A DNA stretch of 64,000 nucleotides from an uncultured Spirochaetota bacterium (lineage in GTDB: Bacteria > Spirochaetota > Spirochaetia > JAFGXN01), in contig CALXOJ010000004.1 of NCBI GenBank assembly GCA_944390005.1, forward strand, positions 62,001 through 126,000, given 5' to 3'. The translations under genes were made by a program, and so were the position numbers. Below the pieces are notes generated by a model. That model saw nothing but the letters and a program-made list of their open reading frames with translations, ran no database searches and was not told the DNA's origin. How positions within the stretch are numbered: position 1 is the stretch's first letter; the number at the start of each line of letters is the position of its first letter. Below, piece by piece: positions 39,392 through 45,977 of the stretch.

Positions 39392-40654
39392 TCACTTTAT
39401 GGAAAAAGTGCGCTCTGAAAGGGTGACCATGACCGTTTTTTCCTCTTTACCGCGGACAATGGTCACAGCAACTTGATCACCCGGACGTGTTTCTTCCAGT
39501 GCTCCAAGTAAATCACCGAAAGTGTGCACAGGGGTTTCGCCGACCGCCGTGATGATGTCTCCTCCAAAATAAATGAAACTGTTTCCGTAACGAATCGGCC
39601 GCCGTTTATCGCCGCCTTTCAGACCTGCTTCTCCGGCGGTTGACTGAGCCGGAATCTCAGAAATCAAAATGCCGCTTGAAACAGGCAGCTGCGCATAGTG
39701 CGCAATCCTAGAATTAATTTGAACAGGGACAATATCGATCCAGCCTCGGTTGACTTTTCCATAGCGAATCAGATCGGGTATCACTCGCCGCGCCGTGTCG
39801 ACCGGAACGGCAAAACCGATACCGACCGATCCTCCGCTCGGCGAATAAATAATCGTATTGATACCAATCAATTCGCCGGCTGAATTGAGAAGCGGTCCTC
39901 CCGAATTACCGGGATTGATTGAAGCATCGGTCTGAATCATATTTTTAATGATGAGGTTATTACCGCTGCGAACAGGACGTGACACACCGGAGATGATTCC
40001 CTGTGTCAGTGTTCTGTCGTAGCCGAACGGATTTCCGATAGCCAGCACCTTTTGTCCGACTTCAAGAGCATCCGAGGAACCGAACGGAATCACTGTCAGT
40101 TTTTTATCTTTTGCATCAATCTTTAAAACCGCCAAATCATTTTCGGGATCCAAACCGACAATAGTTCCTTCGTAGGAATCACCGTCGGAAAGAGTGACAT
40201 ACACTTTATACGCTTTAGCAACCACATGAGTATTGGTCAGAATGTATCCGTCTTCGCTGATGACGGCCCCCGAACCGCTGCTGCCCTCTCTTGGAATCGG
40301 CTCAAAAAGCCAGTTGTAGCCGATGACTTCCGTTGAAATGTTGACGACAGCGGAGTTGTAGCGGTCGTAAATCGCAATCGAATTCCGTTCATCTTCCAGA
40401 GCCGCATTTTGAGAGAGTGTCGAAATTTCAACGGCCGCAGCTTCGCTCTGTCCGGGAAGCGTTTCCACCCATCCGAAATCGTGGGATGATGTATCCGCCG
40501 CTTCTGATATAAGGGCTGTGACTGCAGATTCGTCTCTTTCCCCTTGATTATTTTCTTTACCGAAAAAAGAACGAAAACTGCCGGCAACGATTGCTCCCGT
40601 CAAAAAACAGACGGCAACGGTCAACAACAATTGTTTTCGAGTATAAAACTTCAT
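39392..40654 (-). CDS. HtrA/DegS-type periplasmic serine protease (first copy)
   Basis: The 420-residue protein has an N-terminal membrane anchor (about residues 8-27), a trypsin-like domain with the triad His (NTHVVAK, about 143), Asp (ENDLAVLKI, about 173) and Ser (PGNSGGPL, about 250), and one PDZ domain at the C-terminus. One PDZ plus an anchor resembles DegS, a stress-sensing protease, or housekeeping HtrA. A GGAGGGAG site precedes ATG 40654. A second HtrA with two PDZ domains lies at 46583-48064. Confidence 0.92.
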   Translation of the reverse strand: MKFYTRKQLLLTVAVCFLTGAIVAGSFRSFFGKENNQGERDESAVTALISEAADTSSHDFGWVETLPGQSEAAAVEISTLSQNAALEDERNSIAIYDRYNSAVVNISTEVIGYNWLFEPIPREGSSGSGAVISEDGYILTNTHVVAKAYKVYVTLSDGDSYEGTIVGLDPENDLAVLKIDAKDKKLTVIPFGSSDALEVGQKVLAIGNPFGYDRTLTQGIISGVSRPVRSGNNLIIKNMIQTDASINPGNSGGPLLNSAGELIGINTIIYSPSGGSVGIGFAVPVDTARRVIPDLIRYGKVNRGWIDIVPVQINSRIAHYAQLPVSSGILISEIPAQSTAGEAGLKGGDKRRPIRYGNSFIYFGGDIITAVGETPVHTFGDLLGALEETRPGDQVAVTIVRGKEEKTVMVTLSERTFSIK

Positions 40655-40710: not shown

Positions 40711-42207
40711 TCAGTCGCCTCTCAGACGAAACGCTTTGTGTAAATCAACTGTTTCCACCCGTGAAGCTCCCCGGTAATCGGCAATCGTCAGGCTTAACCG
40801 CGTCAGATTGATCACCGAACGCATTGACAGACCGTTGCGGCGGCAGTAAGCATTAAATTCCGTTTCTGCCGATTCGGACATACGGCAGTAGTTTTTCAGC
40901 AAATTCGGCGGCAGCAAACCATTCGGAACTCCTCGGAGCTCCGTCGTTCTTTTTTGGATTTCGGCGATTTTCATTCGTATTTCCGCCGACGTAGTTGATT
41001 CGGAAATGAATTCGTCCGCCTCTTTTGCATCGGAACTCCTCCATTTCCAGTGGATTGAAAGTCGATCCGCTATCGCACCGCCAATTTTATTGCGGTAGCG
41101 CTGAATTTCTTTGACAGAACAGAGACAAACGGCATTTGCGCGGCCGCGATTTCCGCATGGACAGAGGTTGGCTGCCATTGCCAATAAAAAATCCGCAGGA
41201 AAACGGCTGCGAATTCCTGCCCGCGAAATCAAAATGCGCCGTTCCTCCAACGGTTCTCTCAATGCCTGCAAAATAACAGAAGAAAATTCGGAAGCTTCAT
41301 CCATGAATAAAACACCATTGTGCGCCAATGAAATCTCACCCGGTTTTAAACCGACGCCGCCGCCGATAATTCCTTCAGGAGAAGCGCTGTGGTGCGGAGC
41401 ACGAAACGGAGGTCTTGTTAAAATACGGTCATCCTCAATCTCCCCTGCTAACGAATAAATTCGCATGGTTTCCAACCGTTCCTTTTCGGTTAAATCGGGC
41501 AGCAGCGTCGGCAATCGGGTAATCGCCATCGTTTTTCCGCAGCCGGGAGGTCCGGTCAACAGAAGATGGTGTTTGCCGAGAGCAGCATAAATTAACGCCT
41601 CTTTCAGCAACGGCTCTCCGACTATATCCGATAAATCGCCGCTGAAGCTTTCGGGATGTTCAAAAGAAACCGGAAGCGTTGCAATCGGCGGTTTTTCTCC
41701 GTTCGCCAACCGACTGACGATTTCTGCAGCCTCTTTCAGTGATGAAACAGCAAAAATTTCACCTTTTCCAGATAAAAGCGCTTCGTTTTGATTTTCTTTT
41801 GAGACGATAAGAATTTCGACGCCGGCTTCTGCCGCGGCTGCCGCAGCGGCGATGACTCCATCACAACGGCACACCTCTCCGGAAAGCTTTAATTCCCCCA
41901 TCGCCATAATTGAAATCGACGGAGAGGGAATTAATTCTGCCCGCTCCATGATTTTTAAAGCAATCGCCAAATCAAGAAACGCCGACTCTTTACGTACGCT
42001 TCCCGGATAGAGATTGACATAAATTTTTTTTTGAGGACAGATAAAGCCGGAGTTTGAAAGCGCCAATCGCACACGATCAGCCGATTCGCGGACAGCCACA
42101 GCTGCGTAACCGACAATTTGAATCATCGGAAGCCCTTGACGAAGTTCTGCTTCCACTTCCACCGGCGTCGATTCGTATCCGAGATTTAAACAACCGAATA
42201 TTCTCAT
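40711..42207 (-). CDS. comM: YifB/ComM-family Mg-chelatase-like AAA ATPase
   Basis: ComM is a hexameric helicase that promotes branch migration in natural transformation and recombination. The 498-residue protein has the Lon-like N-terminal domain, the AAA core with Walker A TGPPGCGKTM and Walker B GVLFMDEASEF, a Cys-rich segment (CPCGNRGRANAVCLC) and the Mg-chelatase C-terminal domain. It follows the RNase HI fusion gene by 36 bp. Whether this organism is transformable is unknown. Confidence 0.93.
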   Translation of the reverse strand: MRIFGCLNLGYESTPVEVEAELRQGLPMIQIVGYAAVAVRESADRVRLALSNSGFICPQKKIYVNLYPGSVRKESAFLDLAIALKIMERAELIPSPSISIMAMGELKLSGEVCRCDGVIAAAAAAAEAGVEILIVSKENQNEALLSGKGEIFAVSSLKEAAEIVSRLANGEKPPIATLPVSFEHPESFSGDLSDIVGEPLLKEALIYAALGKHHLLLTGPPGCGKTMAITRLPTLLPDLTEKERLETMRIYSLAGEIEDDRILTRPPFRAPHHSASPEGIIGGGVGLKPGEISLAHNGVLFMDEASEFSSVILQALREPLEERRILISRAGIRSRFPADFLLAMAANLCPCGNRGRANAVCLCSVKEIQRYRNKIGGAIADRLSIHWKWRSSDAKEADEFISESTTSAEIRMKIAEIQKRTTELRGVPNGLLPPNLLKNYCRMSESAETEFNAYCRRNGLSMRSVINLTRLSLTIADYRGASRVETVDLHKAFRLRGD

Positions 42208-42243: not shown

Positions 42244-43242
42244 TTATTGGATTCGATTTTTTAAAGTTTCGATAGTTTCACAGCAAAGCTGATCACAACG
42301 TTCATTTAATTCGCAGCCATCATGCCCTTTAACCCAAATCCAATCGATTTTCAATTTCTCGTTGATATTATCCAAGCGTTGCCACAAATCAATGTTTTTA
42401 ACCGGTTCTTTCGAGGAAGACTTCCACCTCCGTTGCTTCCATTGTTCAATCCATTGCGTAATACCGTTTTTGACGTATGTACTGTCAATATAAAAGCAAA
42501 CAGCGGCTTGAGCACCGAATCGTTCGTAACAATTTTCCAATGCCTTGATGGCGGCAGTCAGCTCCATTCGATTGTTAGTGGTTTCGAATTCTCCTCCGGA
42601 CGATTCAAAGATTTCTCCTTCCGCGGAAATAACAAAAGCCCACGCTCCGATCCCCGGATTAGGACGACAGCCTCCGTCGCTGTAAATTTTGATATTTTTA
42701 TCAAAAGTGCATTTTTTCTCCGGAGAGACCAACAGTTCCGTATACGGCCGAATTTCCGGTTCATGTCCTACCAGATCAAGCTTTTGCAACAATACTTTTT
42801 TTTCTTGCTCCCAATCTTTCACTGTCGGTTCCCTTTCATAAAGACGCTCGGCCTCTAAAAAAAGCCCCAATCCGTCTACTTCGTTCAATTCGATATTCCA
42901 TTCCCCAAGACGGTAAAGAGTCGTTTTTTTGGTTTTTTCTATAACTTTTTCAAAGTTGAGTTTGCGGCAAAATTCTTCAAATTTTGAAGGCGAATCAATC
43001 GAAAATTCCGTTTCGGAATTGAGTTCGCATCCGTTAAAAATCCGTTTGTCTTTAAGAGTGACTAAAAATTTGGTTTCTCCGGCGGATTCCAGAGTTCTAA
43101 GTCGAAAAAGCGATGTTTTGTTCAAACCAAAATACAGATCTCTCTTAAATATCATCTCAGGCGGAAACTGCGTTAATGATTCGAGCCGTTTTTTAACATT
43201 TTCAAAGTCCGACAATTTAATTTTAAACTCATATTCCCACAT
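42244..43242 (-). CDS. rnhA: CYTH (triphosphate tunnel) domain fused to ribonuclease HI
   Basis: Residues 1-170 form a CYTH domain: the ExExK signature is Glu3-Tyr-Glu5-Phe-Lys7, and basic and acidic tunnel residues recur (FRLRT, KFLVTLKDKR, WNIELNEVDGLG, FLEAE). Such domains hydrolyse or cyclise triphosphates, such as thiamine triphosphate, tripolyphosphate or ATP. Residues 184-332 are RNase HI with all four catalytic acids: Asp189 (YSDGG), Glu227 (NRMELTA), Asp253 (YIDSTYV) and Asp317 (NERCDQL); it cuts RNA in RNA-DNA hybrids. The joint role is unknown. The mRNA is predicted leaderless; comM follows. Confidence 0.92.
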   Translation of the reverse strand: MWEYEFKIKLSDFENVKKRLESLTQFPPEMIFKRDLYFGLNKTSLFRLRTLESAGETKFLVTLKDKRIFNGCELNSETEFSIDSPSKFEEFCRKLNFEKVIEKTKKTTLYRLGEWNIELNEVDGLGLFLEAERLYEREPTVKDWEQEKKVLLQKLDLVGHEPEIRPYTELLVSPEKKCTFDKNIKIYSDGGCRPNPGIGAWAFVISAEGEIFESSGGEFETTNNRMELTAAIKALENCYERFGAQAAVCFYIDSTYVKNGITQWIEQWKQRRWKSSSKEPVKNIDLWQRLDNINEKLKIDWIWVKGHDGCELNERCDQLCCETIETLKNRIQ

Positions 43243-43248
43243 GATCCC

Positions 43249-43254
43249 ATTATA
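43249..43254 (-). promoter_or_regulatory. -10 box of the RNase HI-comM operon, predicted leaderless
   Basis: A perfect TATAAT on the - strand, followed by GGGATC and then the ATG at 43242, seven bases after the box. The -35 region is weak (CTGTTT at 17 bases). Confidence 0.6.
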
Positions 43255-44811: not shown

Positions 44812-45977
44812 TCATTCTGCCGCTTTAAAATTATAAATCGGCTTGATGATTTTGACAATCTCAACCGTATCGCCGATTCGCTCAATAATTTCCTGTGTCG
44901 GTTTATAGACTGCCGGCGCTTCATCAAGCGTCGCTTTGGAAACAGTGGTTGTATAAACGCCTTTCATGCTTTCGGCAAACTCTTTGACAGACAGCTCCTT
45001 CATCGCCTTTGTCCGCGACATAATCAGCCCCGCTCCGTGCGGCGCTGAATGATTCCAATCCGCATTCCCCTTTCCAACGCACAAAAGACACCCGTCTCTC
45101 ATGTTCATCGGAATCAACAGCCTCTCCCCTTTTTTGGCAGAAACCGCCCCTTTGCGCACTATGTTGTCCTCAAACGAAATGTAATTGTGCACCGTCTCAA
45201 ACCGTTCGTAATCCGACAGATCAATCGCCCGCTCAAAATACCTAGATAAAATCTCCCGCGCAATCTCTTGGCGATTTAAGCTTGCAAAGTGCTGACACAA
45301 CTTCATGTCATGCAGAGACTCCTCTCGACCGCGGCCCTCTAAATAACACAGCGCCTTCGGCAGCTTCGTCTTGCCTTGAGACTTTTTTTTCTTCGCCTCC
45401 TGACCCAAAGAACAGTGCTCAATCGCTTCTTGCTGGTAAATATCACAAATCTGTTTTCCCAAATTCCGAGAGCCCGTATGAATCACCAGATATTTTCGCC
45501 CTTCATCATCGGCGTCAATCTCGATAAAGTGATTCCCGCCTCCCAAAGACCCGATACTGCGGCGCAATCGCTGTTTGTTTTTCAGCTTGGAAAACGCTTT
45601 TAAATCCTCCAAGCAAAACCACACCTTTTCCTCCCGGCATACGTTTTTCCCAAAGGCAATGTGCTTGCGGATGATTTTGTCCAACCGCTCAAAATCCAAA
45701 TCCACTTTCCCAAGCTCAACGCACTCCATCCCACAGCCAATATCGACCCCACAATGTTGGGGATCACCTTCTTCCCCAAATCACCAGTAAACCCAATCAC
45801 GCATCCGATACCCGCATGAACATCGGGCATAATTCGCACCTTGGCGTTGGCGAATGCCGGCTGGCTCATCAGCTCCTTCACCTGCTCCAAGGCTTTATTG
45901 TCAATGTTGTCAGTAAAAATCTTTAAATCAGCTTTTGCCTTCCGAGCAAAAATCCGTCTCAAAATCCGAAGTATCAT
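44812..45977 (-). pseudogene. rtcB: RNA-splicing ligase RtcB, interrupted by a one-base frameshift
   Basis: RtcB joins 2',3'-cyclic phosphate and 5'-OH RNA ends using GTP and Mn. The frame from 45977 gives KIFTDNIDNKALEQVKELMS and VRIMPDVHAGIGCVIGFTGD; the second frame (to 44812) gives DIGCGMECVELG, SIGSLGGGNHFIEI and NADWNHSAPHGAGLIMSRTK, which include metal-binding Cys and His residues and the guanylated-His region. The break falls in the GGGG run at 45747-45750: adding one base restores the family's VGVDIGCGM. The rejoined protein would be about 389 residues. HGAGR of the family reads HGAGL. It may be a true pseudogene, a sequencing error or a slippery site. Confidence 0.88.

Follow-up and report, generated by a model that had tools for sequence, protein, structure and literature searches.

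CYTH-RNase HI, a new domain architecture in spirochaetes, is probably a pair of independent enzymes brought together by gene order

Introduction

On the minus strand of a 64,000-nucleotide stretch of DNA from an uncultured Spirochaetota bacterium (hereafter the window), an open reading frame at 42244..43242 encodes a chain of 332 amino acids in which a CYTH domain of the triphosphate-tunnel (TTM) kind is followed by an RNase HI. This raises the question of whether the two halves form one enzyme working on a single RNA or two enzymes that share a chain. The original prediction proposed that the tunnel handles the 5′-triphosphate of the RNA on which the RNase H half acts, and was aware of no described enzyme of this kind. 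The latter point agrees with our reading: no CYTH-RNase H enzyme was found in the searchable papers, in which the fusion list of the founding CYTH paper is covered only via PMC8233210, and the review-level list given there names HD hydrolase, exopolyphosphatase, nucleotidyl kinase and CHAD as partners of CYTH, with RNase H absent.

Results

The fused frame begins with an ATG at 43242 and ends with a stop codon at 42244-42246, and profiles that exceed their curated cut-offs tile residues 1-171 and 182-329. Specifically, Pfam CYTH covers residues 1-147 (E 7.4e-8, 32.9 bits against a cut-off of 23.2) and NCBIfam TIGR00318 (cyaB) residues 1-171 (82.7 bits against 57.95), followed by Pfam RNase_H at residues 182-322 (E 2.7e-38) and NCBIfam PRK00203 (RNase HI) at residues 182-329 (178.5 bits against 160). 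Together with PDB matches, alignment to 1rch and residue conservation, these place the CYTH half at residues 1-171 (42730..43242, minus strand) and the RNase HI half at residues 183-332 (42244..42696, minus strand); comparison between species delimits an 11-residue linker between them (residues 172-182, VSPEKKCTFDK; 42697..42729, minus strand). The RNase HI half has E. coli-like 1rch as its best phmmer match (E 4e-38) and carries D189, E227, D253, D317 and H307, along with a basic protrusion (handle) around W264-W273; H307 and the W264-W273 region are conserved. Every feature of the E. coli type (family model, D-E-D-D, histidine, basic protrusion) is found, and this half is an ordinary RNase HI, predicted to cut the RNA of hybrids.

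Across 55 aligned spirochaete relatives, E3xE5xK7, D189, E227, D253 and D317 are invariant, one row being gapped at the ExExK columns. The catalytic residues named in the original prediction are therefore borne out, homologues retain rather than lose the tunnel residues, and the complete state of both active sites supports its view of a single chain with two potential activities. An AlphaFold model of the fusion, built with seven sequences, is good for the RNase H half but gives a pLDDT of 31-50 for residues 50-136 and no usable domain interface; the expected eight-stranded tunnel fold of the CYTH half, where AlphaFold confidence is low, draws its support solely from sequence relatives of solved structure.

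The fusion is real, and neither a chance juxtaposition nor an assembly error, because a sister species has an uninterrupted copy and both halves are under purifying selection. In that sister species, an uncultured spirochaete of the same genus known from a metagenome-assembled genome (G001, locus L001), the same fusion occurs at 81% identity with no internal stop, and dN/dS between the two species is close to 0.1 in each half (CYTH, about 0.128/0.988; RNase H, about 0.086/1.08). The linker is the fastest-changing stretch, with 7 of 12 residues identical over 172-183. A perfect TATAAT lies at 43249-43254 on the minus strand, six bases upstream of the ATG, and is also present in the sister species. 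A promoter scan found no good -35 element for it; the fused gene has no clear Shine-Dalgarno sequence in the window, and the position of the TATAAT could mean that the transcript is leaderless.

It is informative to examine the CYTH half in light of the motifs that separate the activities of this superfamily. Class IV cyclases need HFxxxxExExK, lack the first Arg of RxR and carry Ala in place of the second Glu of ExE; in thiamine triphosphatases W or Y precedes RxR, at the first position of WxRxR; and the remaining CYTH proteins with ExExK, DxY, RxR and ExE are triphosphatases (PMC8233210). The window protein has E3, E5 and K7 at its very start, D35xY37 (as D35LY37), R47xR49 (as R47LR49, with L45 before it), K64, E77 and E79, E118, and E130xE132 (as E130AE132), so that the motif set of the TTM inorganic triphosphatases (ExExK, DxY, RxR, ExE, no HF) is present. 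The HFxxxxExExK signature was found in none of the 99 CYTH frames in the loci examined. A thiamine triphosphatase can be rejected on motif, since L45 stands where W or Y is expected; this Leu is bulkier than the Ala of SaTTM, in line with the small residue that the TTM inorganic triphosphatase pattern places here, and most relatives have A, L, S or R at the position. Because both the cyclase and the thiamine-triphosphatase signatures are absent and the TTM set is present, the CYTH half is best read as a TTM tripolyphosphate/NTP triphosphatase, despite the name attached to TIGR00318, its activity being a prediction from sequence.

The archaeal CYTH proteins of solved structure 1yem, 2dc4 and 2een are the nearest to the CYTH half by phmmer, and a nine-row spirochaete CYTH profile searched against the PDB gives 2dc4, 1yem and 2een as top matches, followed by the cyclases 3n0y/2fjt and SaTTM (7ns8). 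No Cet1-like RNA triphosphatase was among the PDB matches in searches at E 0.01-0.1. Within the genome, a search with the window protein found no second CYTH or RNase HI; an RNase HII and one CRP-like cNMP-binding protein are also encoded. The CYTH proteins of family f20, whose genomes are about 1 Mb (L153-L156), likewise lack HFxxxxExExK, an observation that may bear on the annotation of Borrelia CyaB as a class IV adenylate cyclase; direct detection of cAMP is not addressed in the paper on Borrelia cyaB (PMC8186283).

The order of the neighboring genes suggests how the two domains came to be joined. Directly after the fused gene lie a ComM-like Mg-chelatase AAA protein (40711..42207, minus strand; Pfam Mg_chelatase), the ancestral downstream neighbor of rnhA, which has the same order in five other genomes (G001, G002, G024, G032, G063), and then the next gene of the ancestral order, an HtrA/DegP-like protease (39392..40654, minus strand; Pfam Trypsin_2 and PDZ; same order in G001, G002, G063). 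In G002, a member of the same family but of another genus, two separate genes on one strand, 1.8 kb apart, encode the CYTH protein (178 aa) and RNase HI (145 aa), in the Pfam-based order CYTH, HAD, galM (a reverse-strand aldose epimerase), rnhA, comM, htrA. Set against the window order of CYTH-rnhA, comM, htrA, this indicates that the intervening HAD and galM genes are gone from the window lineage. A CYTH gene lying 0.7-13 kb ahead of rnhA, with both on one strand, recurs in 28 genomes from nine families of the class outside genus g33, while nine genomes have both genes on one contig without such linkage (G008, G009, G020, G028, G049, G064, G179, G221, G246). Elsewhere in the window, at 44812-45977 on the minus strand, an RtcB-like RNA ligase is split in two frames (ORFs of 305 and 125 aa, overlapping at 45600-45729), reflecting either a frameshift or a sequencing error.

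In genus g33 the two genes belong to a unit that runs from a gene for a membrane protein through CYTH and the gene of a PpiC rotamase (Pfam) to rnhA, with about 290 nucleotides between the CYTH and RNase H domains in nearly all genomes. In one of these genomes (G315), the CYTH stop lies one base from the ppiC start, and the start of rnhA shares bases with the stop of ppiC; in another (G339, L121), ppiC is absent and rnhA begins, in a different frame, within the last bases of CYTH, which is the intermediate expected before fusion. Synteny in this genus is general, in that flanking genes are conserved as often as the CYTH-rnhA pair (42 and 41 loci). Each of the five fused proteins has 5-11 residues between its domains, the join being almost exactly end-to-end. 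The result is a near-complete series of steps that recurs in separate lineages, from distant neighbors through an operon, loss of the middle gene and out-of-frame overlap to fusion.

To count the origins of the fusion, a tree was built from both domains concatenated (55 rows, 314 columns), in which the five fused rows are the window protein (G000), that of its sister species (G001) and three members of g33 (G035, G152, G336). On this tree well-supported branches oblige the state to change three times: once for the window protein and that of the sister species, once for G035 and G152, and once for G336, whose sister is the unfused G315 (support 98/98). Constrained trees reject a single clade of all five fused rows (p-AU 0.002) and, marginally, one of the three g33 rows (p-AU 0.041). 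Our best estimate is therefore three origins, in the window genus and in two lineages of another family, although two are possible given the long branches of some rows; the gene orders make one gain followed by repeated splitting far less probable.

The searches took in 393 genomes from the phylum, 297 from the class, and a short-peptide pattern scan of 84,980 species genomes, which was built on the window protein and so picks up close relatives only. Among phage and plasmid records none covers 80% of the fusion query. Several apparent candidates were set aside: in the Cronobacter plasmid matches to query residues 91-319, the annotated rnhA (199 aa) starts beyond that stretch, in which there is no CYTH; the 499-aa frame holding the CYTH of G170 owes its N-terminal part to an out-of-frame open stretch, and the CYTH has its own start Met; and the long RNase H frames of G574, G088, G604 and G251 reflect low complexity or frame read-through, with no recognizable second domain.

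Each domain also occurs apart from the other, and RNase HI has other partners. Family f20 keeps CYTH with all motifs and shows no RNase HI match, and many genomes have RNase HI without a detectable CYTH. A Gfo/Idh/MocA oxidoreductase is joined to a C-terminal RNase HI in seven genomes from several genera of family f24 (L137, L138, L139, L140, L142, L143, L149; frames of 528-581 aa), which makes this second spirochaete RNase HI fusion the more widespread of the two. G046 carries an in-frame fusion of a DAHP synthase of AroG type to RNase HI (L141:1312-2961), and G197, of the same genus, has an open frame equal in length, the match being one of length alone. In family f13, a nucleotidyltransferase/DUF4037-like protein is joined to RNase HI in G058, with similar frames in G095 and perhaps G072 (L146:1345-2748, L147, L148); this is possibly a nucleic-acid-linked pair. 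In L148 the part ahead of RNase H matches no Pfam domain. All of these partners occupy the same N-terminal position as CYTH, and such a range of partners indicates that RNase HI accepts whatever lies upstream.

Discussion

We consider it probable that the fused chain is two enzymes with independent activities, produced when two adjacent genes of an old spirochaete cluster fused end-to-end. The N-terminal half would hydrolyze the terminal phosphate of tripolyphosphate or NTPs by two-metal chemistry inside a β-barrel tunnel, the C-terminal half would cut RNA in RNA-DNA hybrids, and the halves most likely act on separate substrates. What the fusion provides is co-expression from one start codon, and perhaps a means for the CYTH half to dimerize RNase HI; a shared substrate is not required. 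Independence is favored because gene order accounts for the fusion, the partners of RNase HI are promiscuous, and CYTH is kept where RNase HI is absent. The facts that sit least easily with it are that the same pair has been fused three times, always with CYTH first, and is linked in at least nine families; this is more than a neutral accident needs, and it could point to a functional tie.

It is also worth considering known systems that resemble this one. We regard the RNase HI-CobC proteins of actinobacteria (Rv2228c, MSMEG_4305, SCO2299; PRK07238), and specifically those of mycobacteria, as the closest functional precedent. They too combine RNase HI and a phosphate-releasing enzyme in one chain with two active sites, and the phosphatase half is useful by itself, as here, although their partner is a C-terminal histidine (acid) phosphatase rather than an N-terminal metal-dependent tunnel enzyme. 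The window protein is not a member of that family (18.3 bits against the PRK07238 cut-off of 326, from the RNase H part only). In mycobacteria the domains are functionally dissociated in vivo: removal of the partner from MSMEG_4305 hardly alters RNase H function, and its authors favor drift (PMC7466739). Against independence, the linkers here are short (5-11 residues), and at such a length the domains of Rv2228c do influence each other (PMC7466739). By this precedent, domains that act independently would be the likelier outcome. Other relatives are more partial. The small TTM/CYTH triphosphatases (SaTTM, Saci_0718; Pyrococcus PH/PF 1yem, 2dc4, 2een), the best relatives of solved structure, share ExExK, DxY, RxR and ExE but stand alone, with no RNase H. 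Proteins of the ygiF type likewise link CYTH to a second domain, but that domain is the helical CHAD and no nuclease, and their similarity is weak (5a60, E 0.004). Prokaryotic and eukaryotic RNases H1 with an N-terminal hybrid-binding domain (dsRHbd/HBD) also carry an additional domain ahead of RNase HI, although that domain binds hybrids and is no enzyme, and CYTH is unrelated to it in fold and chemistry. Finally, the Cet1-like RNA triphosphatases have the TTM fold and two-metal chemistry in common with the CYTH half, but form a subfamily of their own, with no sequence match to it in the PDB searches.

Among the other explanations, the least unlikely is that the CYTH half acts on the RNase H half, by dimerizing it or by tuning it to levels of tripolyphosphate, NTP or metal. 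CYTH proteins are mostly dimeric (PMC8233210), the linker is short, and the C-terminal domain of Rv2228c boosts RNase H activity in vitro (PMC7466739). However, the RNase H half has its own basic protrusion and all of its catalytic residues, and so needs no helper for substrate binding, and its partner retains the same tunnel residues as stand-alone CYTH proteins, which would be needless for a purely structural role. We hold this explanation to be a minority reading. The proposal that a class IV adenylate cyclase is joined to RNase HI, tying cAMP signaling to hybrid removal, could draw on the TIGR00318 match above its cut-off and on the CRP-like protein in the genome, but the missing HFxxxxExExK and the retention of R47, R49, E130 and E132 are the reverse of the cyclase pattern (PMC8233210), and we give this proposal the least credence of all.

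Scarcely more probable is the idea with which the locus was introduced, in which the tunnel would strip the γ-phosphate from the 5′-triphosphate of an RNA (a transcript or primer) in a hybrid and the RNase H half would then cut the same strand. Two intact active sites under purifying selection in one chain, the repeated fusion of CYTH and RNase HI, the short linkers and the existence of TTM-fold RNA triphosphatases in eukaryotes (Cet1; PMC4641920) are all in keeping with a single coupled enzyme. However, the CYTH half has its affinity with small archaeal and bacterial TTMs and is not Cet1-like; tested members of that group use tripolyphosphate and free NTP (PMC8233210, PMC3440374), with SaTTM hydrolyzing ATP without base specificity (PMC8233210) and ygiF being a specific PPPase (PMC3440374). 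Likewise, each domain is found where the other is not, partners in the same position bring no RNA-end or RNA triphosphate chemistry, synteny in g33 is general around the pair, and the fusion needs no explanation beyond gene order. Hence this part of the original prediction has no specific support and is improbable, and two independently acting enzymes remain our preferred reading.

The locus adds a domain architecture, CYTH-RNase HI, of which the searchable papers give no description, and it offers a concrete case for asking whether a bacterial tunnel enzyme acts on RNA ends. If coupling were true, it would constitute a bacterial counterpart of the TTM-type RNA triphosphatases, acting on R-loops or primers, which fusion would have created three or more times. 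More broadly, spirochaete RNase HI readily gains N-terminal enzyme partners, which urges caution against reading function from the fact of an RNase HI fusion.
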